A program made the translations under genes and the position numbers. From contig JALCRV010000013.1 of assembly GCA_022652945.1 (NCBI GenBank), positions 1 through 60,742 on the forward strand: a DNA stretch of 60,742 bases, written 5' to 3'. This document shows, piece by piece, positions 1,495 to 51,285 of this stretch. Each line of letters opens with the position of its first letter. Position 1 is the stretch's first letter. The DNA is from Bacilli bacterium (lineage in GTDB: Bacteria; Bacillota_I; Bacilli_A; RFN20; CAG-288). The notes under the pieces were generated by a model. That model had not been told where the DNA came from. It made no database searches and worked only from the letters and a program-made list of their open reading frames with translations.

Positions 1495-3357
1495 TTAACT
1501 TAGTTCGGCCTGTCCGGTGTACAAGGCGAAATAGCGGCCTTTCTGCTTAAGCAAATCCTCATGGTTCCCTCTTTCGATGATTTGGCCTTGTTCCAAGACC
1601 AAGATTGCATTGGCGTTCCTGACCGTGGAAAGCCGGTGAGCAATCACGAAAACGGTCCTTCCTTCCATCAACTTATCCATCCCTTCCTGAATCAGATGCT
1701 CAGTATGGGTATCAATCGAAGAAGTCGCCTCATCAAGAATCAAAACGGGCGGATTAGAAATCGCAGCTCGGGCAATCGCCAGAAGCTGCCTTTGTCCTTG
1801 AGAAAGATTAGCGCCATCCGCGGTCAGATAAGTCTGATAGCCCTGGGGCAGACGCCGGATAAAGGAATCAGCGTTAGCCAACTTGGCCGCCATCACGACT
1901 TCCTCTTGACTCGCATCAAGTTTTCCGTAGCGGATATTTTCTTCGATGGTCCCGCTGAAAAGATGAGTATCCTGCAAAACCATGCCCAAAGAGTTTCTTA
2001 GATCATCTTTCTTGATTGCAGAAATATCGATTCCGTCGAAAGTAATCGCCCCTGAATCAATGTCATAAAAACGATTGATCAGATTGGTAATGGTTGTCTT
2101 CCCCGCCCCTGTTGACCCGACTAAAGCGATTTTTTGGCCGGGCTTGGCATAGAAGGAAACACCCTTCAGGACCGGATGATTCTTCACGTAAGAAAAAACC
2201 ACATTATCGAAACAGACATCGCCTTTTAAAGGGATTAAAGAAACTTGGTCATCCGTTTCCCTTTTCCATGCCCAGGAACTCGTTCGGCTCGATGCTTCTT
2301 TTAAATCGTCTTCCGCATCCAGTTCGGTCGGAACCAAGGTGATTTTTCCTTCATCGCTTTCTTTTTTCTCATCGATCAAGTTAAAAATCCTTTCGGCGGC
2401 CGCTAAAGCGTTAAGCAAAAGATTCGCCTGCGCGGTAAACCTGTTTATCGGCATAGCGGTCTGGCGGACAAAGACCAAGTAAGCAGCGATGGTCCCTAAG
2501 TCACCTAAATACCCGTAATAGACTAAAAGACCGCCTACGATCGAAACAATCGCGTAGTTGATGTAACTTAAGGACATCACCATCGGAACCATAGTATTGG
2601 AATAATTCAAGGCCGAGGAAGAAGCTTCCATCAGCTCGGAGGATTTGTTTTCGAAAGTCTTGATGGCTTCTTTTTCATGGAGGAAAACTTTGACAGTCTT
2701 CTCCCCGCGGATAATCTCATCAGCGTAACCTTCCAGTTCCCCGAGAGCTTTCTGCTGGAGGGCGTAATAATGTTTGGATTTCTTGCCAGCGTGAATGATA
2801 TAGATGAACATCAGGATGTAGAAGACAAAAACAATTAAGGACAGTTGCCAGGACAGGATGAAAATAAAAATCATCGTGCCGACAATCTCGACGAAATACT
2901 GAATCAAAGGAGCGAAGGCATTGTTTAAGGCATCAGAAACCGAATCGATATCGTTCGAGAAAGTCGACATTACGTTGCCGAACGAGTGGGTATCAAAGAA
3001 AGAAATCGGCAGATCCTGGATATGTTTGTACATATCCTCTTTCATTTCATAGACGACATCCTGAGCGAGGACGGCGATAATCTGAGTGTAACCTAAAGAA
3101 GCTAAAGCTCCAGCTAAGTACACTAAACCAATGATTACGCAAGGCCAGATTAAAGTCTCCGGGGTGGAGTTCGGGTCAGAAGCGAGATTGATAATGAACT
3201 TAATCGCATAGGTCCCGACCAAAGTCGCTAAGGCTGCAATCGTCACCAAAATAGCAACGATAGTTAAAGCCCAAGTATGCTTACCGAGGTATTTGATGAA
3301 GGCTTTGGCGGTCTTTTTCAGATCTTTAGGCCTGGCATACGATAAAATCCTAGCCAT
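1495..3357 (-). CDS. ABC exporter half-transporter, subunit with the consensus catalytic site
   Basis: A six-helix transmembrane domain (first ~320 residues) is fused to an ATPase. Walker A is GSTGAGKTT (around residue 415), the signature is LSQGQ, Walker B is LILDEATSS with the catalytic Glu, and the switch is IAHR with His. The start is placed at 3357: this ATG overlaps the partner stop by 8 bases and has a GGGGG-type ribosome site 9 bases upstream; a longer frame to 3384 lacks one. With its partner it matches heterodimeric type IV exporters (BmrCD, LmrCD, TM287/288), which expel drugs or lipid-like molecules. A linker of about 40 residues before the ATPase is rich in charged residues and Ser. 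The substrate is not predictable. Confidence 0.9.
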   Translation of the reverse strand: MARILSYARPKDLKKTAKAFIKYLGKHTWALTIVAILVTIAALATLVGTYAIKFIINLASDPNSTPETLIWPCVIIGLVYLAGALASLGYTQIIAVLAQDVVYEMKEDMYKHIQDLPISFFDTHSFGNVMSTFSNDIDSVSDALNNAFAPLIQYFVEIVGTMIFIFILSWQLSLIVFVFYILMFIYIIHAGKKSKHYYALQQKALGELEGYADEIIRGEKTVKVFLHEKEAIKTFENKSSELMEASSSALNYSNTMVPMVMSLSYINYAIVSIVGGLLVYYGYLGDLGTIAAYLVFVRQTAMPINRFTAQANLLLNALAAAERIFNLIDEKKESDEGKITLVPTELDAEDDLKEASSRTSSWAWKRETDDQVSLIPLKGDVCFDNVVFSYVKNHPVLKGVSFYAKPGQKIALVGSTGAGKTTITNLINRFYDIDSGAITFDGIDISAIKKDDLRNSLGMVLQDTHLFSGTIEENIRYGKLDASQEEVVMAAKLANADSFIRRLPQGYQTYLTADGANLSQGQRQLLAIARAAISNPPVLILDEATSSIDTHTEHLIQEGMDKLMEGRTVFVIAHRLSTVRNANAILVLEQGQIIERGNHEDLLKQKGRYFALYTGQAELS

Positions 3358-6809: not shown

Positions 6810-7449
6810 CAGTCTTTTTTTCTCCGTTTCCAGTCTGGCTTTCCCCGTTCATATTCGAAAAAACCGCCCGGCCATCATAAAGATAGATGCCACCGGAAAT
6901 CAAAGAGAGGACTAAGGCGATAGCAATCAGAACCGTGGTAAATATATAGGTTTTGTCGCCTAAAAGGTAATCCAACGGAAAACCGTTCAAAAAGATAAAC
7001 GGCAGGACGATCATCTGGGCAACTGTCTTGGCCTTGCCCCATTTGTTGGCGGCGATGACAACACCATTGGTGGCTGAAAGGAAGCGAAGACCGTCAACCG
7101 CCAAGTCGCGGATGATGAAGAGGACAGCAAAGATAGCCGGAAGATAGTCGGGCTTATAGACAGCGAGAAGGATGATGGAGGAATTGACCAGGGCTTTATC
7201 AGCTAAAGGATCCATGAACTTTCCGAAGTCTGAAACCAGATGCCTTTTTCGGGCGATATTCCCATCGAGAGTATCGGTGATGGCTCCGACGACAAAAATA
7301 ATCGCGCAGAGGAGATCGATCAGAGTAAAACCGGTAGTCCCGAGGATTCCGGGTGTCCAACCGCAAGCGGAATAGGGAAAAACCATAAGGATTATCAAGA
7401 CGAGCGAGAGGATAAACCTTCCGACCGTTAATTTATTGGGGATATTCAT
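6799..7449 (-). CDS. pgsA: CDP-diacylglycerol-glycerol-3-phosphate 3-phosphatidyltransferase
   Basis: 216 residues with several membrane helices. The CDP-alcohol phosphatidyltransferase signature is complete: D59, D62-G63, A66-R67, G76, D80, D84. PgsA makes phosphatidylglycerophosphate, the committed step of anionic phospholipid synthesis, at the membrane. I place the start at 7449 (MNIPNKLT), because the alternative ATG six codons upstream sits inside the GGAGG ribosome site. The C-terminal tail is hydrophilic and overlaps pncC. Confidence 0.92.
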   Translation of the reverse strand: MNIPNKLTVGRFILSLVLIILMVFPYSACGWTPGILGTTGFTLIDLLCAIIFVVGAITDTLDGNIARKRHLVSDFGKFMDPLADKALVNSSIILLAVYKPDYLPAIFAVLFIIRDLAVDGLRFLSATNGVVIAANKWGKAKTVAQMIVLPFIFLNGFPLDYLLGDKTYIFTTVLIAIALVLSLISGGIYLYDGRAVFSNMNGESQTGNGEKKTDGR

Positions 7450-29943: not shown

Positions 29944-29970
29944 TTATCATAACGATAACATTTTTATAAT
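29944..29970 (+). promoter_or_regulatory. inverted repeat overlapping the promoter of the prepilin-like operon
   Basis: TTATC-ATAAC-GATAA (29944-29958) sits where the -35/spacer of the promoter should be, and TATAAT follows at 29965-29970. No consensus -35 is visible, which suggests dependence on a bound regulator. The implied leader is about 130 nt. Confidence 0.45.
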
Positions 29971-30002
29971 AATATTTAGTAAGTGGAAAATTGTTTGTTT
30001 TA

Positions 30003-30088
30003 GGTTAGATTATTGCTTAGAAGAGATGAAAGTGTTGCCCTAGGCTATTTTTCTAACCGTCATATTGCTTTTCTCCTCTTGAGAAAGC
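30003..30088 (+). promoter_or_regulatory. structured 5' leader of the prepilin-like gene
   Basis: Two pairings are visible in the leader: GGTTAGA (30003-30009) with TCTAACC (30052-30058), and GCTTTTCTC (30067-30075) with GAGAAAGC (30081-30088, one bulge). The second abuts the GAAAGGA ribosome site at about 30089-30096, so it could affect translation. It matches no riboswitch family I know. Confidence 0.4.
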
Positions 30089-30105
30089 AGAAAGGATCCA
30101 TTCAA

Positions 30106-32901
30106 ATGGGTAAGCTTAGAAAGAAGTTGGTTAAAGCTTTTACGCTAGTTGAATTAATTGTCGTCATGGCGATTATCGCTATCCTCGCTGGTGTCAGTAT
30201 CGGCTCTTATATAGGTATTACTAATAAGGCCAAGAAAACAGCAGCTTTAGCGGAAGCCAATCAGATCCGCACTCAGCTGTACGCTATCGCCTCCGAAAAC
30301 GGTGGTTTCAAGAGCGGACCGCTTAGCGGGCATAGTATCTCCTTCCCGGATGATATCAATTACTTCACCGCTGAGCTTCTCGCTGCTTCCAGTTTGAAGA
30401 AAGCCAGCGGAAGCACTGCTTATAATCCTTATATTGCTTTCAACTTCTACTCGGATGAATATAAGACTCCCGTTGATTCCTCAATTAGCAACTATGTCCG
30501 TTTAGCCATCGGATACTTAATAGCGGCTAACAATGGCAATATCAATACTGAAACCGTCAATAAGTATGCGAATGAAGTCTACGTCGATACGACGGATGGA
30601 ACGATTTCCACTTTCGATGTTGTGAAGGATGGAACCTGGGCTACCGCTTATGTCAATTCGGAAGCGACTTCGTTCTCCAGAACCACCACGCCTACTATTT
30701 CAACTGTCGCAGTTTCTCCGACCACTACTGAAGATTCCACTCTGGAAAGCGGAGCTACTTGGACTAACTGGTATGCCAATGACAATTACACTAGATTCCA
30801 GACAAGACTAAGCGCAGTTAACCCTTCAAAAAACGATAATGATAGTGTCCCTGCAACTACCGCCTTTATGAAGACTGCCACTTTTAGAATCGGTACTGAT
30901 AATTCCGTTAACTTAGCTCCTCACGTCGAAGCTATCGCTAATGGTTCTCCTATTTCCTTATCAAAATTAAATAAAGGTGCCGCTCATGAATCTATTACTT
31001 GCAAATACTATCTCTCTACCGATTTAAAGAATGAAATGAGCGCGACTGATAAAGCCACATACTTCGATGCTACAGTCGATCCGGCTGCCTTAGGCGATAT
31101 TAAGTTAAATGCTGCTGCCGCTGGTAAGTCTTTCGTTTTGACCTTCCAGTATGGAACCGGCACTAATTCTAGTTTCCCGAATGTCTCTTATGCTTTCGAT
31201 GCAGTTGAAGGTTATAACATCAACGATGTTTATGATCTATTCGCATTGAATAACGAAACCAGCTATGACGGGTTGGAAGGTGGAGAATCCACCAGCGCTC
31301 GTAATACTGCGATTGCCACTTATCTGACAAGTAACCACAAAACTCCACATATTAACTACAAAGGTGGAATTTTCCAAAAAGATATCATTCTTAAAAGCTC
31401 GAATATTCCCTCTTGCTTCATTTGGCAAGCTGGTGAGCACGGGACTTACACCTATAAAGATTCCGAAGGAACTAGCCATTCTGTTGATTGGGCTGTAGAT
31501 CCGGCAGTCGTTGGTTCCTTAAAAGATGAAAGTTATTTGGTTCTTCATCGCCACAGCGCCGAGCATCCGACATTTGATGTCTATGGCAACTATTTCAAGC
31601 TTTCTTTAAGTGCTGACTTCCCGAAGATTGCTTCGGATTCCTTCCCTCCTAGTAACTGGTCTGATCCTACTGGGCAGCTTCCGGCCAACGGTGCGACAGT
31701 TCAGTCTCACGCAGCAATCTTCTCCGATAAAGCGCAACAGTATCTAAATGTAAATGCCCAAGCCCAAACGCTTTATACCAACGGGTTATATAAGACATTT
31801 ATGACTTCTTTCCATGATCTCGCTTCTACCGGAAACCATGGTGTCAGTAATATCGCTGATACTGCACACGCAGGCGTCAGCTTCTATAAGGCTTTCAGAA
31901 ATGCAACGATGGATGATTGCTTAATTAACAGTTATTACATCCCTGTTATGAATAACGGCCAATACGTTCCAGTCAACGATGGAGATGGAACAGTAACCAA
32001 CAAAGGTGTTGCTCCGATTATCAATATCTCGAGCAGCCGTTTAATTGATTCTGGCAATGCAGCCCTGTTTGTCTCTAAAGAAGGAACTATTAATGTCACC
32101 GATTCCGAAGTGAAGAGAGCTGGTGGCCCGTTAGCTATTCTTGCCGAAAAGAGATATAGCCTTACTGAAAAGACAGAAGCTAAAGCCACTTATGCCGCAG
32201 ACAATAAGGATCCGAGAAACGGTGGCTGGATCAACATTATTTCTTCTTCCATTGAGAACTGGGTAGCAGGATCTGGCGGCTGGTTCAAAATTAATGGAGT
32301 TGAAGGCTCATTTGACCAAGTTAAGCAATTTGATCCTTTATTCAATGCCCTCAATAAATCGTTTATTAAAAAAATTGGCTCGAACAAGGATATTAACTTA
32401 ATTGCGATTACCATGGGCGATAAAGATTCAGCAGCTGACGGAGGCTATTTTGGAGGAGTAAGAGTCAACGGAGCTAGTTACATAGAATACGAAAATGGTA
32501 GATCCGCAATGGAAAACAGCGGTATGCCTGCCGCGTTATCTGTTGCCCCGACCAGTGATTATGGTTGCATGTATTTAGCAGAAAATTGCAATTTGAAGTC
32601 AACTCCTATCTTTAAAACGGTAAAAGTGGGAGTCGATGCCGAAAACAATCCTACTTATAATAATTATTACGGATGCTTTACGACACCAACCCCGACTTCA
32701 ATTTCAAATACTACTGCCTTTATTGGTGGATCGGCCACAATCGATTCTAATTTTGGAATCAGTGATTATTTGACGATGTATTATTCTGGACAACTTCCAA
32801 TCAAGGGTGCATATAACCAAGGGGCCGGAGCAGGAAATTTTGCATCCTATGCCGGTTCGGACGCTTACGGTATCCTGATGGCCTTAAATGATTTAGCCTA
32901 A
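30106..32901 (+). CDS. giant prepilin-like (type IV pseudopilin N-terminus) surface protein
   Basis: 931 residues from the ATG at 30106, chosen for its AAAGGA site 9 bases upstream. The N-terminus is a class III signal: basic leader MGKLRKKLVKA, then FTLVELIVVMAIIAILAGV with Phe at +1 and Glu at +5. The residue before the cut is Ala instead of the usual Gly. The N-methylated helix is followed by about 880 residues, far beyond ordinary pilins of 120-200. The body is rich in Ser, Thr, Asn and aromatic residues; around residues 630-760 repeated short strands (INISSSRLIDSGN, INVTDSEVKRAGG, INIISSSIENW) suggest a right-handed beta-helix. Likely a surface-anchored adhesin or filament subunit. First gene of a four-gene operon; no pilus ATPase, platform or prepilin peptidase is in the window. 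Confidence 0.75.
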   Translation: MGKLRKKLVKAFTLVELIVVMAIIAILAGVSIGSYIGITNKAKKTAALAEANQIRTQLYAIASENGGFKSGPLSGHSISFPDDINYFTAELLAASSLKKASGSTAYNPYIAFNFYSDEYKTPVDSSISNYVRLAIGYLIAANNGNINTETVNKYANEVYVDTTDGTISTFDVVKDGTWATAYVNSEATSFSRTTTPTISTVAVSPTTTEDSTLESGATWTNWYANDNYTRFQTRLSAVNPSKNDNDSVPATTAFMKTATFRIGTDNSVNLAPHVEAIANGSPISLSKLNKGAAHESITCKYYLSTDLKNEMSATDKATYFDATVDPAALGDIKLNAAAAGKSFVLTFQYGTGTNSSFPNVSYAFDAVEGYNINDVYDLFALNNETSYDGLEGGESTSARNTAIATYLTSNHKTPHINYKGGIFQKDIILKSSNIPSCFIWQAGEHGTYTYKDSEGTSHSVDWAVDPAVVGSLKDESYLVLHRHSAEHPTFDVYGNYFKLSLSADFPKIASDSFPPSNWSDPTGQLPANGATVQSHAAIFSDKAQQYLNVNAQAQTLYTNGLYKTFMTSFHDLASTGNHGVSNIADTAHAGVSFYKAFRNATMDDCLINSYYIPVMNNGQYVPVNDGDGTVTNKGVAPIINISSSRLIDSGNAALFVSKEGTINVTDSEVKRAGGPLAILAEKRYSLTEKTEAKATYAADNKDPRNGGWINIISSSIENWVAGSGGWFKINGVEGSFDQVKQFDPLFNALNKSFIKKIGSNKDINLIAITMGDKDSAADGGYFGGVRVNGASYIEYENGRSAMENSGMPAALSVAPTSDYGCMYLAENCNLKSTPIFKTVKVGVDAENNPTYNNYYGCFTTPTPTSISNTTAFIGGSATIDSNFGISDYLTMYYSGQLPIKGAYNQGAGAGNFASYAGSDAYGILMALNDLA

Positions 32902-32909
32902 TCAGACCT

Positions 32910-35381
32910 ATGACTCAGACTGCCAAAAGATATGTCTTGATATCGGCAGTATGTTTCATTTACTTTCTAGTTGCTTTACTTACTTCAATAACCTATAAAT
33001 CTTACAGTTTTAGTCTTTATGAAGGTGTAGAATTCCTCACTTTCATCTTGGCTTCCAGCCTCCTTTTCTTGCTGGGAGCCAAGGTGAGGAGGAATTTTTC
33101 TTCTGTTGAAGATCCTAAGAAGTTAAAGGATAAGTTCCTTAACAAAATCGCTGACCATGAGAACCGGATTATCTTTTATAGGAAACTTTTAGCCTTCGCT
33201 CTTCTGATTCTTTTTATGGCCCGCTTTTACGATACCAATGAAGACTATCTTCAGGAAGTCGTAAAGCTGACTTCCGATTTCATGGCGCCTTGGGAAGTCG
33301 GAATCGGAGCTATCCTTTCAAACTGGTGGATCGGAGCTTTAATTTTTATCTTAATCGGGGAGTTCTTCCCTTCCGATTTCTTCCGCGCTGTTGAAAGGTT
33401 TGTCTCAGGGCTCGTCGTCGTTCTCTCCATCTGTTTCTTCCCTCAGATCACCCAGGGAATCGTCGGAGACGTCCAGAAGTATGTCTTTAACGGAAGAGCC
33501 TTGATGATGGGAGTGGAATTAGGCTTGATGGCTGGCTTTGTTTTTGATCGTTGGTGTAAGGAGCCTTCTTTTAACCTAGGTAAAAAGACTTGGTATTCCG
33601 TCCTGGTGGGTTTTATCCTTCTCGTAATCTGTACCATCGGGGATTACCTCCCGATGAACCTTTTTGGGAAAAACATCGGTAATCTCAACGGGCCTTATAA
33701 TTTCAATCTAGCCCATCGTTTCTATATTTACCTTTGTTTCATCCTTCCCGTTCTTTATTACAATCTCTTGTATCCTTTCGATAAGAAGCACCGGAAGGCC
33801 TTTATGTTCTTTATCTCCTTCGCGGTCTTCTTCTCTTATGCGGCCGTCAGAAGAAGGCTGACTTTTATGTATATCCAAAATGCCCCGTTGCATCTTTGCA
33901 ACACGGCGATGTATATCATGCCTTTCACCTTAGCCTTTTCTAATTACTTTGTTTTCTACTTCACGATGTTCGTGAATGTCATCGGGGCTTTCTTAGCGAT
34001 GATGATGCCTAACTACGCTTCGACTATTCCGATTCTTTCCTCCAATGCCATCGAGTTCTTCATCAACCACATGTACGCGGCTTTTATGCCGGTTCTGATT
34101 ATCATTTTAGGTATTTATGAAAGACCGAAGATTAAATTCTTCATCTATTCGATGATCGGTTTTTTAATGTATTTCGTCTTGGTGGCTTTCCTTAATATCT
34201 ATTATGATGGAGTCGCTCATCTAGGTCTGGATTTCTTCTTCCTGAATTCTACCTTTATCTCAGATAAGTTAGGCTCCTGGGCTATCAATATCTTCAACGA
34301 CAAGACCAGCGTAAATATCAACGGCAATACCTTCGTCTTCCGTCCTTTATATCTGACTTTGTTCTACTTAATCTACGTCGGTCTCTCAATCGGGATGTGG
34401 TACGTATATGAAATGCTGTTCCTAGGTCTTGATCAATTGATAATCCTAAGAGAAAGAAGACTGGTAGCTGAGAAAGGGAGGGCGGAATATATGCTTAAAA
34501 AGAAAGCGGAAGAAGAAAAAAAGAAAGCTTCAGGTGAAGAGGAAAAGAAACCTCAGACCTTAGAGGAACTCCCCGCCTCCATCACCATCGATCATGTCTT
34601 TAAGACTTATGAAGGTGGCATGAAAGCCGCTATCTCTAATTTCTCCGTCAATCTCGAAGCCGGTCATATCTATGGGTTTCTCGGGAAAAATGGCGCTGGT
34701 AAATCCACGCTTATTAAGGCGATTGTCGGTTTACATCCTTTCGATTCAGGTACCATCAAAATCTGCGGGTACGATATCAACTACCAGCCGATCGAAGCGA
34801 AGATGTGTTTAGGTTACGTCCCGGATAATTACGCCCTTTATGAAAACCTGACCGGAAGACAATATATCCAATATATCGCTTCGATTTATAAAGTCTCGAA
34901 AGCCGATCTGGAGACGAGGGCTTTCGATCTGACACGCCGGTTGGAAATGACAGAGTTTTTCGATATGCCGATTCGTTCCTACTCCCACGGTATGAAGCAG
35001 AAGATCACAATTATCGGAGCTTTAATCCATGAGCCGAAGATCTGGATTCTCGATGAACCGATGACCGGGCTTGATCCGTATTCGATTTTCCAGATTAAAG
35101 AGACGATGAGAGACTACGCCCAGAAAGGCAACATCGTTTTCTTCTCTTCCCATATTATCGATGTCGTCCAGAATCTCTGCGATAAGATCATCATCATCAA
35201 GAACGGTGAAATGGTTGAGCAGAACGATATGGATTACTATCAGAAAGCCCACGTCAATCTCGAGGAGCATTTCCTCGAATTGACTAACGATACGAAGACT
35301 GAAGAGTTCTATTTAGCAAGGGCTTTGAAGAAAAAGAAAGATAAGCTAAAGGAAAAGAATGCAAAAAAGCAAGGAAAATAG
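32910..35381 (+). CDS. YwaF/TMEM164-like membrane domain fused to an ABC ATPase
   Basis: 823 residues. Residues 1-530 contain about a dozen membrane helices; the second half of this part (about 270-420) resembles the YwaF (TIGR02206)/TMEM164 family, with the HLCNTAMYIMPF motif. After a Lys/Glu-rich linker (about 530-553) comes a complete ABC ATPase: Walker A GKNGAGKST (about 592-600), signature YSHGMKQK (about 691), Walker B WILDEPMTGLD (about 712) and switch SSHI (about 748). The ATPase is of the ABC-2 exporter type. It begins 8 bases after the prepilin-like gene and overlaps the permease by 23 bases. I know of no described protein with this fusion. Confidence 0.75.
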   Translation: MTQTAKRYVLISAVCFIYFLVALLTSITYKSYSFSLYEGVEFLTFILASSLLFLLGAKVRRNFSSVEDPKKLKDKFLNKIADHENRIIFYRKLLAFALLILFMARFYDTNEDYLQEVVKLTSDFMAPWEVGIGAILSNWWIGALIFILIGEFFPSDFFRAVERFVSGLVVVLSICFFPQITQGIVGDVQKYVFNGRALMMGVELGLMAGFVFDRWCKEPSFNLGKKTWYSVLVGFILLVICTIGDYLPMNLFGKNIGNLNGPYNFNLAHRFYIYLCFILPVLYYNLLYPFDKKHRKAFMFFISFAVFFSYAAVRRRLTFMYIQNAPLHLCNTAMYIMPFTLAFSNYFVFYFTMFVNVIGAFLAMMMPNYASTIPILSSNAIEFFINHMYAAFMPVLIIILGIYERPKIKFFIYSMIGFLMYFVLVAFLNIYYDGVAHLGLDFFFLNSTFISDKLGSWAINIFNDKTSVNINGNTFVFRPLYLTLFYLIYVGLSIGMWYVYEMLFLGLDQLIILRERRLVAEKGRAEYMLKKKAEEEKKKASGEEEKKPQTLEELPASITIDHVFKTYEGGMKAAISNFSVNLEAGHIYGFLGKNGAGKSTLIKAIVGLHPFDSGTIKICGYDINYQPIEAKMCLGYVPDNYALYENLTGRQYIQYIASIYKVSKADLETRAFDLTRRLEMTEFFDMPIRSYSHGMKQKITIIGALIHEPKIWILDEPMTGLDPYSIFQIKETMRDYAQKGNIVFFSSHIIDVVQNLCDKIIIIKNGEMVEQNDMDYYQKAHVNLEEHFLELTNDTKTEEFYLARALKKKKDKLKEKNAKKQGK

Positions 35382-37050
35382 ACAATCCCTCAAGGATAAA
35401 TATCTGATTGATTTCCGCGCTTCTTTTACTATGGTCAGGATGATGAGCCAAGACTCTTACCGGATCAGTTTAAAAGACTCCAGAAAGCAATCTTTGATTA
35501 AGATTGTCACCTTCCTCGGCCTCTTTATCGGACTCTCCTTCCTTTTTAAAGCCTTCTTCCAATTAGCGGAGATGCTGAATATCTTCTCCATCATGCCTTT
35601 CGTCCCTTTGGCGGTGCCGTCTTTAGTCTCGACCATCATCTTTATCATCGGGTTCATCCACGCGTTAGGCGAAGTCACGAAGACTTTATATTTCTCCCCC
35701 GATTTAAAAGTGATGGCCACCTTCCCCGCTAACGGTTTAACCGTCTTCACCGCCCGTCTCGCCACCGTCTTCTTAAAGGAATTAATCAATGATTTGCTGG
35801 TGGAAATCCCCTTCCTTTTCGGTTACATCCTAAATTCATCTTTACCGGTTTATCTGATTGTCCAGGTGCTTATTACCTGGGTCATCTATATCATCTTTGA
35901 GTTACTTCTCGCGACTCTTTTATCAGTCCCGGTCTTCTTTATCAGAAAGTTCTTCCACCGCCATAAAGCCGAAGAGTACTTCTTAACGTCTCTTCTTTTC
36001 TTCACCGGGATGGGCTTTGCTATTTACTTCATGTCCTTAATGCCGCAGAACATCGATATCTTCACTAACTGGGGGCCTTACTTTAACAAGATCCAACAGA
36101 TTTTAACTTACTACCGGACGAACTTCCGCTTCTTCTACGGGATGAGCCAGCTCTCGTGCGGTACGGTGGAAGGTTATACTTTACAGTTCTTCCAAGGCGA
36201 TAGCTTATTTAGCCTAGCGATCATCTTAATCTCGACGATTCTTTTGCTTCTTTTAGATGTTTTCTTAGTTAATCCGATTTATCTGAAGATGGCTACCTCA
36301 GACTCTAACTTAGGTAGTGATTATAACCCGCAAGCAAAAGGCAAGTATCTAGCTTATCCTCTCTCTCAACTGCAGAAGGATATCTCCATCTTCGCTCAGA
36401 ATAATTCATTATTCACTTCCTTCGTCCTGCCTTTAATCCTCGAGCCTTTATTGGTGATGCTGATGAGCAAGATCTTCGGAGCGATGTCTACGGATGCGAT
36501 GGGAGATATCTTAGTCAATGTCGTCTCCTTGCTTTTGATTCTCCTTTGTCTTTTAAACTCCAATTCCGCTTTAGGTACTTTGTTCTCCGATGAAGGAAGG
36601 GCTTATTCCTTATCGCGTTCCTTCCCGGCTAAAGAGACGGATCTATTAGGCTCTAAGCTATTTGTCCCCGCGGTTTTAATTACCTTCTCCACCATCGCTT
36701 CCGTGACAATCTTCGGCGAAGTCAAAGGTTTAGATCCTTACGCGATCTTCTTCTTATTCTTTACCGTCCTCTTTTTCGCCTTAGGCCATATGCTTTTCTC
36801 AATCGGGCTAGATATCCAAGGGGAGAAAGATAACTTCGATAACGATAAACAGAAAAGGCAGAATTCGCTTTTAGTTACGGTGACGGCTTTCATTATTGCC
36901 TTCGCAATGGCCATCCTTTATTTCCTTTTCTTAAGGGAAAGCAAGGATTTCATCCCGGAGCTGAAGATTTCCATCTTCGCTTCTTTGTATTTCTGCTTTA
37001 ATGTCTCTTTGTTCTTGAAGAAAGCTAAGTACATTTATCGGGAGGGTTAG
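35359..37050 (+). CDS. ABC exporter permease
   Basis: 563 residues with about twelve hydrophobic helices in two groups separated by a region around 300-350. The FSPDLKVMATFPANGL segment after the first helices is the cytoplasmic coupling stretch seen in ABC-2-like permeases whose proteins act as putative exporters. It overlaps the upstream ATPase gene by 23 bases, implying translational coupling and a shared complex. The substrate is unknown; operon position suggests a link with the prepilin-like protein. Confidence 0.75.
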   Translation: MQKSKENRQSLKDKYLIDFRASFTMVRMMSQDSYRISLKDSRKQSLIKIVTFLGLFIGLSFLFKAFFQLAEMLNIFSIMPFVPLAVPSLVSTIIFIIGFIHALGEVTKTLYFSPDLKVMATFPANGLTVFTARLATVFLKELINDLLVEIPFLFGYILNSSLPVYLIVQVLITWVIYIIFELLLATLLSVPVFFIRKFFHRHKAEEYFLTSLLFFTGMGFAIYFMSLMPQNIDIFTNWGPYFNKIQQILTYYRTNFRFFYGMSQLSCGTVEGYTLQFFQGDSLFSLAIILISTILLLLLDVFLVNPIYLKMATSDSNLGSDYNPQAKGKYLAYPLSQLQKDISIFAQNNSLFTSFVLPLILEPLLVMLMSKIFGAMSTDAMGDILVNVVSLLLILLCLLNSNSALGTLFSDEGRAYSLSRSFPAKETDLLGSKLFVPAVLITFSTIASVTIFGEVKGLDPYAIFFLFFTVLFFALGHMLFSIGLDIQGEKDNFDNDKQKRQNSLLVTVTAFIIAFAMAILYFLFLRESKDFIPELKISIFASLYFCFNVSLFLKKAKYIYREG

Positions 37051-37052
37051 AA

Positions 37053-37529
37053 ATGAAAAAGAGCGTTGTCATCTCGATTATCTGCCTAGCCTTGCTCTCG
37101 ATTATTTTCGTGGCCTTTTTCGGGGTGACCCCGGCCGGGATTATCCCGACGGTCTATATCCAGTCAGTGGAGATTAAGGATATGTCCGGCAACAAGATCA
37201 CGAAGCTGACCGCGGAAGGAGAAAAGACCATCACCGTGAAATTCCAGCCGACTCTGGAAGTCGAATCAGTTAAATATATGCAGTACTTCTTCACCACCAA
37301 GATCATGCCTGAAGACGCTACCCTCTCCGCTATCCGTTATTACTGCGCGGAAAATGACTTTGTGAAAGTCGAAAATCCGAAAAATGGTGCCTTGCTTATT
37401 AAGCAGATGAATCTAGCCACCTCCTCTTCTCCTTACTACATCTGCAATATCACCTGCGCAGCTGATGATGGTGGCTTAGCGGGGATTGAAGATAATCTTA
37501 AGCTGGTGATTGATTACCGTCAGGCTTAG
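37053..37529 (+). CDS. small membrane-anchored extracytoplasmic protein of the prepilin-like operon
   Basis: 158 residues: one N-terminal helix (about 5-27) as uncleaved anchor or signal, then a beta-rich domain with an Ig-like feel (VYIQSVEIKDMSGNKITKL, ITVKFQPTLEV, PEDATLSAIRYY). Two Cys late in the chain (YYICNITC) could pair with the Cys in YYCAEND. No lipobox. It follows the permease by 2 bases and is the last gene before a strong terminator. No family recognised; it may act as a minor component or chaperone (inference). Confidence 0.6.
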   Translation: MKKSVVISIICLALLSIIFVAFFGVTPAGIIPTVYIQSVEIKDMSGNKITKLTAEGEKTITVKFQPTLEVESVKYMQYFFTTKIMPEDATLSAIRYYCAENDFVKVENPKNGALLIKQMNLATSSSPYYICNITCAADDGGLAGIEDNLKLVIDYRQA

Positions 37530-37531
37530 AT

Positions 37532-37560
37532 AAAAAGCTCGGCGATTCACCGAGCTTTTT
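37532..37560 (+). terminator. intrinsic terminator of the prepilin-like/ABC operon
   Basis: AAAAAGCTCGG pairs perfectly with CCGAGCTTTTT (11 bp, 7-base loop). The symmetric A/T flanks may also end the convergent transcript from 38.5 kb. Confidence 0.92.
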
Positions 37561-47619: not shown

Positions 47620-48555
47620 ATGAGCGTAATTGAAATTAACAATCTGACCAAAGATTACGGCTCGGGAAGAGGTGTCTTCTCAGTGTCTTTTCAGGTTGAA
47701 AAAGGCGAGTGCTTCGGGTTTTTAGGCCCTAACGGAGCCGGAAAGTCTACAACCATCCGTCATCTGATGGGCTTCAGCAAACCGGATTCAGGTGAAACGA
47801 AAATTCTTGGAAAAGATAGTTTCCATCACTATAGCGAAGTATTAAGTCACGTCGGATATATCCCGGGAGAAATTTCCCTGCCGGTCGGACTTACCGGATA
47901 TGAATTTCTCAAGATGGAGCAGGATCTCCAGGGAGTTAAAAATGATGAGATGCAGAAAAAGATGCTTTCGTTATTTTCTTTGGAGGATAACGTCTTAAAA
48001 GGCGAGACTAAAAGAATGAGCCTCGGTGTCAAAAGAAAGCTAGCTATCGTGGCAGCTTTCCAAGGTGATCCGGATGTCTTAGTCCTCGATGAGCCGACTT
48101 CCGGCTTAGATCCTTTAATGCAGGAAGTCTTTATCGATTTCATCCATGAAGAGAAGAAGAAAGGCAAGACCATCTTACTGTCCAGCCATATTTTCTCCGA
48201 GATTGATTCCACCTGCGATCGGATAGGAATTATTAAAGACGGCAAGCTGGTTTCTGTGTTTAAAGCGGATGATCTAAAACATGCTTCTGTGAAGTATTAC
48301 GAAGTCGCTTTCGCTTCTCAAGAAGGGTACGAAAGATTCATCTCTCTCCATTCCGCTTCCAGCGTCATGAAAATCCTTCAAAAGGATGACAAAAACCGGA
48401 TGGTTTTCATCTCCGCGGAAGATAAAGATGTCGATCGTTTAGTCGAGCATTTCTCCCATTACGAGTTGGAGTCCTTCACTAACAAAAAAGAGACGCTCCA
48501 AGATTACTTTATGAAGTTCTACAAGGAAGAAAAAGAATACGGAGGCAAATTATGA
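47620..48555 (+). CDS. ABC-2-type exporter ATPase, first of two
   Basis: 311 residues: Walker A GPNGAGKST, Q-loop/GYIPGEI region, Walker B LVLDEPTSGLD and switch SSHIF. The signature reads MSLGVKRKL in place of LSGGQ. About 80 C-terminal residues extend beyond the ATPase core. It has an AAGGAGG site 9 bases before the ATG. Its ATG-side neighbour overlaps by 4 bases. Controlled by the divergent TetR protein (inference from operators). Confidence 0.88.
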   Translation: MSVIEINNLTKDYGSGRGVFSVSFQVEKGECFGFLGPNGAGKSTTIRHLMGFSKPDSGETKILGKDSFHHYSEVLSHVGYIPGEISLPVGLTGYEFLKMEQDLQGVKNDEMQKKMLSLFSLEDNVLKGETKRMSLGVKRKLAIVAAFQGDPDVLVLDEPTSGLDPLMQEVFIDFIHEEKKKGKTILLSSHIFSEIDSTCDRIGIIKDGKLVSVFKADDLKHASVKYYEVAFASQEGYERFISLHSASSVMKILQKDDKNRMVFISAEDKDVDRLVEHFSHYELESFTNKKETLQDYFMKFYKEEKEYGGKL

Positions 48556-49472
48556 ACGAAGTAATTAAATTTGCTGATTTAACAAAAGACTACGGCTTCG
48601 GGAGAGGAGTCTTTAAGGAAAATCTAGTAATCAACCAAGGCGAAATGCTTGGTTTTGTCGGAACAAACGGCTCAGGTAAGACCACCTCCATCCGTTGCTT
48701 GATGGGGTTTATCAAGCCAACGGATGGCTGCGTTTACGTTAACGGATTAGAAAGTTACCATAACGCTTCCTTAATCGCTAAGAGCATCGGCTATGTCCCC
48801 GGAGAAATCGCCTTCCCCGATTTACCAACCGGCAATGACTTTCTTAAATCACAAGCGGAATTCCTAGGTTTGAAGGATATGAGCTACGCCAATGAATTAG
48901 TTTCAAAATTGCAGCTGGATCCTAGAGCAAACTTGAAAAGGATGAGCAAGGGGATGAAGCAGAAGACCGCGATTGTCGCAGCCTTGATGGCTAATCCACC
49001 CATCATCATCCTTGATGAGCCGACCACCGGCTTAGATCCTCTGATGCGACAGGCCTTTGTGGATATTATTAAAGCCGAGCATCAGAAAGGTAAGACCATA
49101 ATGATGTCGAGCCACATGTTTGAAGAGGTGGAGGACACCTGCGATCGAGTAGCCTTGATCAGCGATGGGTATCTGATTGATTCGGTCTATATGAAAGATA
49201 TTATTAATCGCCCGCTGCAGGATTTTAAGATTGAGTTTCAGGAAACGGAAGACTATCTGCGTTTTCAAAATCCAGGTTTCAAGATTATCCGTAAGCAGGA
49301 TCAATATAACCAGGTGACAGTCGAGCTGGAGAGAAAAGAAATCAATAAGTTATTCTCCGCCCTAGCTAGTTACCACCTAAGATTTATCAGCGAAGTTCCT
49401 TATACGTTAAATAAGCACTTCCAAGAAGTGCTGAAGGAGAAAAAACAAAATGTTCAGCAAAGCCTTATTTAA
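48552..49472 (+). CDS. ABC-2-type exporter ATPase, second of two
   Basis: 306 residues and clearly a paralogue of the preceding ATPase (shared openings DLTKDYGFGRGVF and GYVPGEIAFP). Walker A GTNGSGKTT, signature MSKGMKQK, Walker B IILDEPTTGLD, switch SSHMF. It overlaps the first ATPase by 4 bases and the permease by 23 bases. Two different ATPases with one permease suggests an ATPase heterodimer. Confidence 0.88.
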   Translation: MNEVIKFADLTKDYGFGRGVFKENLVINQGEMLGFVGTNGSGKTTSIRCLMGFIKPTDGCVYVNGLESYHNASLIAKSIGYVPGEIAFPDLPTGNDFLKSQAEFLGLKDMSYANELVSKLQLDPRANLKRMSKGMKQKTAIVAALMANPPIIILDEPTTGLDPLMRQAFVDIIKAEHQKGKTIMMSSHMFEEVEDTCDRVALISDGYLIDSVYMKDIINRPLQDFKIEFQETEDYLRFQNPGFKIIRKQDQYNQVTVELERKEINKLFSALASYHLRFISEVPYTLNKHFQEVLKEKKQNVQQSLI

Positions 49473-51285
49473 ACAGTCCGTAAAAGCTAACGGTTGGATG
49501 TGGGTCATCATCACCGCAGCTGAGTGTTTTATGCTTAGTTGCGTCATGGTAATCTCGGGTAACGGAAACGTCGGTCAGGTCAAGAACTCCGTCGAAGATA
49601 CCATTATCAAAGGCGAAATCGATTCCGCCTTAAAAAGCCGGGCTTTATATTATTACGATCTTTCCGATGGAGGCTTAGAAAACTTCGATAATTACTATGT
49701 CGCCGATTTCCAAGCTGACTATCAGGACGTTTCCTCTTATATTCCGACCTTCGATGCCTGGGCTTTAACTAAACCGGTCAAGACTTCAAGCGAAACGGAT
49801 GAAGAATATCAGGCTCGTTTAACCGCGTGGCAAGCCAAGATGCCTAAAGGTCAGACTATCAGTGAGCAATACTATCAACTGCTCTTCCAGAATTGGTCCT
49901 CTGCGATGCCTAGTCAAACCTCTTACGCTTCCTCAGACGATTACTTAAAAGCGATGCAGACCTGGCAGGCTAATAAGCCGGATGCTTTGAAGACTTCTTC
50001 CCAAGCTGCCTTTTATCAAGCAACAAATGAATTAAAAGACGCTGTCTTGAAGGAAGCGGAAGCTAACGGATATAAAGATAACAGCCAAGAATCAAACGAG
50101 ATGCTGGGAGCGGTCATGTACGCCTTAAAGCCCACCTCGGATTTTAATTCCATCTTTACCGCTAATTCAGAAGAAGTACCGGCAGATTACGATGTTTCTT
50201 CTCTGATTCAGCATATCAATAGCGGGGATATTCAGACTTATTTGTCTTCAGATGAAAGAAACAGTTATCGCCAGGACAGAAGCCGCATTTCTTCTTCGGT
50301 CTTCCTCGGGGACAATATGTCTAAACAGTCTACCGTGGATACGCTTTTAGAGACCTTATCTAAATACGGAGTCGATGAGACTAAATACGCCACTTTCGGC
50401 TATACATATACAAACATCAAGGGCATGTCTTCTTCCGCCATCGTTTCCTTCCAGGCTCGTTTTGATTACGAGTTGGAAGCCATCGATAAGAAAAACAGCG
50501 AGGGCGGATATGCTTCCAATGATGATTATCTGAAAGCGAAGGCTGATCTTAAAGTCTCCTTGAAAAAGGAACTCTCGTTATCCTTGCTGGCTTCTTTGCC
50601 TACTGATGTCTCCAAAGCGATTGAAGATGTCGGGCAGATGGATCTATACGGATTAATCGTCGGCAGCGTCTTTTATAAGATCGCGGGTCTGCTGCTCCCG
50701 ATTATCTACGCCATCATGGCTTCCAATAACTTAGTCTCCACCCAGGTCGATACGGGTTCGATGGCCTACGTGCTTTCCACGGGGACTAAAAGAAAGACCG
50801 TCACCTTTACGCAGATTTGTTTCTTGATTCTTTCTTTGCTGGGGATGTTTATCTGCACATTGATTACCTCCTGCATCTGCTGGTCTTCAGTTAGTGTCAG
50901 CGACAGCGGTTTGAACTATGCTAAGCTCTGTCTGATTAACTTAGGAGCCTTCTTAGTCCTGTTCGCTATTTCCGGATTGAATTTCTTCACTTCCTGCCAT
51001 TTCGACCGGACGAAAAATTCGATGGCTTTAGGTGGTGGGCTTTCGATTTTCTTCCTGGTCGCTACCATTCTCGGCTTATTCGGTTCTCCAGTCATCCCGA
51101 GCGTCGTAAGATTCCCGGCTTTAAATAACTTCAATTACGTCTCTTTGATTACTCTCTTCGATGTGATTTCCATCACTGATCAAACGACGGATTTCATTTG
51201 GAAATTCGCTATTCTGTTCGCAATCGGGCTATGTGGCTACATCGCGGGATCTATCCGCTTCGATAAAAAGGATTTGCCTTTATAA
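49450..51285 (+). CDS. ABC exporter permease with a large extracytoplasmic domain
   Basis: 611 residues. One helix (about 16-36), then an unusually long extracytoplasmic region (about 38-398), then six helices (from about 400 to the end). The outer domain is rich in Tyr, Ser and Gln and has three related segments: TDEEYQARLTAWQAKMP (116-132), YASSDDYLKAMQTWQANKP (159-177) and YASNDDYLKAKADL (354-367). The membrane part resembles ABC-2 permeases (antibiotic or peptide export). The last gene of the TetR-controlled operon. Confidence 0.8.
   Translation: MFSKALFKQSVKANGWMWVIITAAECFMLSCVMVISGNGNVGQVKNSVEDTIIKGEIDSALKSRALYYYDLSDGGLENFDNYYVADFQADYQDVSSYIPTFDAWALTKPVKTSSETDEEYQARLTAWQAKMPKGQTISEQYYQLLFQNWSSAMPSQTSYASSDDYLKAMQTWQANKPDALKTSSQAAFYQATNELKDAVLKEAEANGYKDNSQESNEMLGAVMYALKPTSDFNSIFTANSEEVPADYDVSSLIQHINSGDIQTYLSSDERNSYRQDRSRISSSVFLGDNMSKQSTVDTLLETLSKYGVDETKYATFGYTYTNIKGMSSSAIVSFQARFDYELEAIDKKNSEGGYASNDDYLKAKADLKVSLKKELSLSLLASLPTDVSKAIEDVGQMDLYGLIVGSVFYKIAGLLLPIIYAIMASNNLVSTQVDTGSMAYVLSTGTKRKTVTFTQICFLILSLLGMFICTLITSCICWSSVSVSDSGLNYAKLCLINLGAFLVLFAISGLNFFTSCHFDRTKNSMALGGGLSIFFLVATILGLFGSPVIPSVVRFPALNNFNYVSLITLFDVISITDQTTDFIWKFAILFAIGLCGYIAGSIRFDKKDLPL

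Follow-up and report, generated by a model that had tools for sequence, protein, structure and literature searches.

Organization of the Operon

The window, which is the whole stretch of 60,742 nucleotides analyzed here, contains four collinear genes on the forward strand (positions 30106 to 37529), with spacings of 8, −23, and 2 bases in an ORF check of the window. The first gene (30106..32901) encodes a large surface protein of 931 aa, which was characterized through its ORF, an N_methyl match, a profile of 13 relatives, and an AF2 model. Eight bases downstream lies the gene of an 823-aa protein in which a TMEM164-like domain is fused to an ABC ATPase (32910..35381; ORF, Pfam, and 62 aligned copies). 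The gene of a 563-aa ABC-2 (type V) permease (35359..37050), assigned by its AF2 model, fold matches, and PF16949, overlaps the fusion gene by 23 bases and is followed after 2 bases by the gene of a small single-pass membrane protein of 158 aa (37053..37529; ORF, with Big_2 matches in relatives). An intrinsic terminator with an 11-bp stem (37532..37560, forward strand) closes the operon; its fold of −16.8 kcal/mol (z of −5.4) is equaled by 0 of 200 shuffles.

An earlier note on this DNA had described the operon layout, the sizes and spacings, the prepilin N terminus of the 931-residue protein, and the 11-bp terminator, all of which are confirmed by the ORFs, Pfam, and folding. The single promoter region that it had placed upstream is not supported, since 9 promoter-like sites are observed upstream of the operon compared to 18 expected, which is not beyond chance. 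The operon does face starch genes as described, with two lipoprotein-type proteins carrying alpha-amylase, CBM48, and pullulanase-associated domains; relatives do not share this neighborhood. Elsewhere in the window, at 47620 to 51285, an ABC-2 permease and another two ABC ATPases are encoded separately from the operon.

The Large Surface Protein

The large protein is composed of a class III leader, a pilin domain (residues ∼12 to 167), a linker, and a conserved core (residues ∼240 to 800). The prepilin leader MGKLRKKLVKA (30106..30138, forward strand) consists of 11 residues with a predicted cut before FTLVE, and its A/FTLVEL motif is common to two pilins of the type IV pilus (T4P) locus of the same genome. 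N_methyl (PF07963) matches residues 9 to 30 with 26.9 bits against a cutoff of 21.2, and E5 is present. The head shows 75% identity over 40 residues with one pilin of its own genome and 36% identity over 162 residues with another, and it is a complete pilin domain, including the globular part after the helix. The possibility that the head results from a chimeric assembly was rejected, as the fusion is in frame and the same architecture is found in two other genomes. By its sequence, the large protein in this genome is best called a modular pilin.

The conserved core (30823..32505, forward strand) is predicted from conservation and the AF2 model to form a right-handed β-helix. The model of the large protein has a mean pLDDT of 46, with core blocks mostly at 50 to 80. 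Among the matches listed, the VIA matches of the core are right-handed β-helix or β-solenoid proteins with Z scores of 10 to 13.6; NosD is absent among the VIA matches listed. Foldseek gives no match of the large-protein model at an E value of <0.001, and a sequence search of solved structures yields only weak matches, to the N-terminal Ig-like part of the protein. The β-helix assignment is thus a low-confidence prediction. Near-invariant residues of the core are mostly Gly and Asn, the only charged ones being D474 and K595, which suggests a role in binding or as a scaffold rather than in catalysis.

The TMEM164-ABC Fusion

The TMEM164-like acyltransferase domain of the fusion protein (residues 267 to 460; 33708..34289, forward strand) matches PF14808 with 53.2 bits against a cutoff of 25 and contains H269-R270, H328-x-C330, and H387. 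The ABC ATPase domain (residues ∼559 to 790; 34584..35279, forward strand) has intact Walker A, SHGMKQK signature, Walker B, and H-loop motifs, and ABC_tran matches residues 576 to 718 with 89.3 bits. Both domains thus exceed their cutoffs within one chain, and the fusion of a membrane domain to an ABC ATPase that had been read from the sequence stands. A sequence search of solved structures finds nothing for the TMEM164 domain.

For each of H269, R270, H328, C330, and H387, 61 of 62 aligned fusions have the same residue, and the ATPase motifs are invariant across them. The residues C330 and H387 presumably correspond to C123 and H181 of human TMEM164. The deviating fusions are those of genome G137, which has lost H328, C330, and H387; of G068, with Q in place of H269; and of G062, with L in place of R270. 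H328, C330, and H387 are present in all three systems with a pilin-headed large protein (this genome, G000, and G060 and G068). The fusion of G137 (L149, 6715 to 9018) keeps its ABC domain, so that acyl transfer would not be essential everywhere. In G137, tandem large-protein genes follow the fusion gene, as they also do in G136 (L148).

With its near-invariant His and Cys residues kept, the fused domain is a putative acyltransferase of the TMEM164 (ATGY) type. The Bacillus lipoprotein acetyltransferase LhaT and the human lipid acyltransferase TMEM164 are members of one superfamily of lipid-metabolizing proteins, ATGY (PMC12345273). PcrB, which makes the LhaT donor Ac-HepG, was found in 0 of 39 genomes (this genome and 38 relatives), with a positive Bacillus subtilis control. 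The open-access literature searched contains no description of a bacterial YwaF/TMEM164 domain fused to an ABC protein. We know of no earlier fusion of an ATGY/TMEM164 acyltransferase with an ABC ATPase.

The Permease and the Small Protein

The AF2 model of the permease (mean pLDDT of 73.6) shows about 12 membrane helices arranged as two bundles in one chain. Its fold is that of the ABC-2 exporters, with Z scores of up to 16.2 over 206 residues; almost the full chain aligns with the mycobacterial efflux pump 8k1m (Z of 12.4 over 435 residues), and the second half matches NosY in the fold comparison. PF16949 is found in 7 of 16 permease members, and some members match PF16949, PF12730, or PF01061. 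Neither a sequence search of solved structures nor Foldseek at an E value of <0.001 returns a match for the permease. According to the model, the protein adopts a type V (ABC-2) exporter fold; neither direction nor substrate follows from this, ABC-2 folds being common. The two bundles of the 12-helix chain would pair with two ATPases, which implies two acyltransferase domains per complex. An Ig-like (Big_2) match is found in 3 of 17 family members of the small protein.

Occurrence of the Four-Gene Module

In almost every locus examined (∼55 in Bacilli and Clostridia, judged where contigs were long enough), the fusion, permease, small, and large genes are adjacent. Searching named genomes with the TMEM164 half yielded 13 loci in Bacilli and Clostridia, and relatives of this genome gave more. 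Within the 279 genomes of the order, the fusion occurs in 63 and the core of the large protein in 58, and all 58 core-bearing genomes also carry the fusion (hypergeometric P of 1e-54, calculated from these counts). In nearly all fusion-core pairs, the distance is about 2.4 kb upstream or 4 to 6 kb downstream. The remaining 5 of the 63 fusion-bearing genomes lie below the core threshold, and each has a lipoprotein gene, either complete or truncated at the contig boundary, after the small gene.

The gene order is not constant. In some lineages, this one included, the large gene lies ahead of the fusion gene; in most, it follows the small gene, and in G060 and G068, it lies on the opposite strand. 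No recurrent neighbor genes were found beyond the four; the recurrent clusters are shared by close relatives or are mixed general families. The binding to starch or food particles that the earlier note had offered as one possible role is therefore unsupported. An even draw over the phylum shows full-length fusions in a minority of genomes and shorter, stand-alone TMEM164-like ORFs in others.

The four-gene cluster is not due to chance, since it recurs together in dozens of genomes, and the dedicated four-gene surface system proposed in the earlier note is borne out by this co-occurrence. Comparison of sequences and genomes marks the ABC ATPase-TMEM164 fusion, the permease, the small single-pass protein, and the large secreted, anchored protein as one module. 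This module is apparently an undescribed envelope machine conserved across many uncultured Bacilli and Clostridia; of the genomes sampled from the order, about one in five has it.

Exchange of the Lipid Anchor for a Pilin Head

Among 54 large proteins that were aligned, 53 have a lipobox Cys; only that of the window has Val at this position. Two more pilin-headed large proteins were found, in G060 and G068, which belong to another family. The heads show 57 to 75% identity (over 40 to 68 residues) with pilins of their own genomes, compared to only 33 to 38% across the two clades. The fusion tree gives two independent origins of the pilin head, forced by supported branches, and 0% of bootstrap trees have a single origin.

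The earlier note had remarked on the lack of PilB, PilC, and PilD, which is true of the window; the genome-wide search that it had suggested, however, finds all three together with pilins in one locus on contig 3, separate from the contig of the operon. A PilC match above the cutoff occurs in 13 of 279 genomes of the order, with the borderline G083 counted as negative; many of the genomes are incomplete MAGs, in some of which PilC may be missed. Five system-bearing genomes have a clear PilC. The large protein is pilin headed in three of them (G000, G060, and G068) and has a lipobox in the other two (G030 and G062). All of the ∼48 system-bearing genomes without PilC have a lipobox, so that among system-bearing genomes of the order pilin heads are found only with a clear PilC (Fisher P of 4e-4, a count that treats related genomes as independent, the pilin-head origins being two independent events).

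The anchor was thus exchanged for a pilin head at least twice, each time in a lineage with pilus genes. The conserved part of the large protein is, by comparison of the sequences, the core and not the anchor, which is a lipid in most lineages and a complete pilin domain in this genome and one other clade. The pilin head is a late, local addition and does not define the system. Since nearly all relatives have a lipoprotein in place of the pilin-headed protein, the ABC genes did not evolve to handle pilins.

Between PilD and PilC, the T4P locus of this genome (contig 3, 85915 to 102633) also encodes a 714-aa protein and an ABC ATPase with a 570-aa permease; a 1,096-aa protein with a BspA-type LRR match is likewise encoded in the locus. 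The permease encoded there is at most marginally similar to that of the operon (hhalign probability of 37%).

Comparison with Known Systems

The fused domain resembles the TMEM164/LhaT (ATGY) acyltransferases in its conserved His and Cys residues and differs from them in its fusion to an ABC ATPase and in the lack of a detected PcrB donor pathway. In permease fold and ATPase motifs, the complex is similar to the type V (ABC-2) exporters (8k1m, NosFY, and ABCG/ABCA). In contrast to these, an acyltransferase domain is fused to the ATPase, and a large surface protein is obligate. NosD is the extracellular β-helix protein of NosDFY. The pairing of an ABC transporter with an extracellular protein is likewise found in NosDFY, and the second half of the permease matches NosY; however, no NosD Pfam match exists in 13 large-protein members, the β-helix model is of low confidence, and no link to copper or N2O reduction is seen. 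Contrary to LolCDE/MacB (type VII), the FtsX/MacB Pfam domain is absent in 16 permease members.

Modular type IV pilins are known from Streptococcus sanguinis (PilB and PilC) and Thermus thermophilus (ComZ, with a β-solenoid) (PMC8179133, PMC9934059). The protein of the window is similar to these in that a large functional module is grafted on a complete pilin domain, with pilus machinery in the same genome. Unlike in those pilins, the module is the lipid-anchored partner of an ABC-acyltransferase complex in relatives and is encoded with the ABC-acyltransferase genes, away from the pil locus. ABC exporter genes lie in the pil cluster of Myxococcus as PilGHI (PMC6060248), an association with T4P resembling that inside this genome's own pil locus. 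Here, in contrast, the ABC-bearing pil locus is separate from the operon.

Proposed Function and Alternative Explanations

The best explanation, judged about as probable as its negation, is that the four genes encode a conserved envelope machine, in which an acyltransferase is built into an ATP-driven exporter that works with an anchor-swappable extracellular β-helix protein. Two fusion copies on one 12-helix type V permease would place the acyltransferase inside an ATP-driven exporter or flippase. At the membrane, a lipid or lipid-linked substrate would accept or donate an acyl group, and the lipid-type substrate would be moved outward by the ABC complex. Outside, the small Ig-like and large β-helix proteins would receive the substrate, bind it, or be modified by it. 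In this genome, the pilin-headed protein would be matured, most likely by the genome's own PilD, after which either the pilin helix keeps it in the membrane beside the ABC complex or PilB/PilC carry it outward, with the pilus tip as the probable place. The large protein may be displayed on pili here. Placement at the tip would, however, take the protein away from the ABC complex, which is awkward for a permanent partnership; the weak β-helix model and the lost acyltransferase residues of G137 also count against this explanation. Tentatively, the ABC-driven TMEM164-type acyltransferase might lipidate or load a dedicated external β-helix client, re-mounted on a lipid anchor or a pilus.

It is rather doubtful that the large protein is itself the target of the ABC complex, which would extract, release, or acylate the body of this protein to bring it to the outer surface or hold it there, a Lol- or Mac-like handling of a single dedicated client. 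The strict one-to-one linkage of client and transporter and the constant secretion and anchoring of the client would fit, but the type V permease fold without FtsX/MacB does not. Lipoproteins and pilins, moreover, reach the outer leaflet by Sec without Lol- or Mac-like help. An ordinary drug or peptide exporter with the large protein and acyltransferase domain as accessory or regulatory parts is unlikely; the mycobacterial efflux pump is the closest whole-chain fold, but the surface partner is obligate and the acyltransferase signature near invariant.

A LhaT-like remodeling of the N-terminal acyl group of the lipoprotein partner is distinctly unlikely, despite the common superfamily and the lipobox in 53 of 54 partners. 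H328, C330, and H387 persist although the partners in the window, G060, and G068 have no lipobox, which speaks against a role confined to the N-terminal cysteine of the partner, and no PcrB donor source was detected. In the reading of the earlier note, the extraction or anchoring of a pilin-like adhesin would fall to an ABC complex in place of a pilus motor; the pilin head beside ABC genes and the ABC exporter inside the T4P locus favor this, but it is very improbable because the genome encodes PilB, PilC, and PilD, the head matches the genome's own pilins, and most systems have neither a pilin head nor PilC in the genome.

The operon is genuine, and it is of greater interest than the earlier note had suggested, though for another reason: it is apparently an acyltransferase-ABC module not described before, whose surface protein can be swapped. 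Pilus-bearing genomes have replaced the lipid anchor with a pilin more than once, a natural experiment in which the partnership of the core with the ABC complex, and not the tether, is conserved. This replacement suggests a possible route to modular pilins, the recruitment of an existing lipoprotein effector.

Pilin-headed proteins also occur outside the module. G030 encodes several of 500 to 900 aa on contigs 12, 14, and 16, which are candidate modular pilins, and its own system protein keeps the lipobox. In G062, the small gene is followed by a lipoprotein of >4,200 residues (L152, 7179 to 20000, continuing in L153); L153 begins with a weak core match, and the same contig carries a T4P locus. 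Contig 15 of G062 encodes two proteins of >600 aa whose pilin heads (2962 to 3297 and 7102 to 7431) share 54 to 55% identity with that of the large protein of G060.
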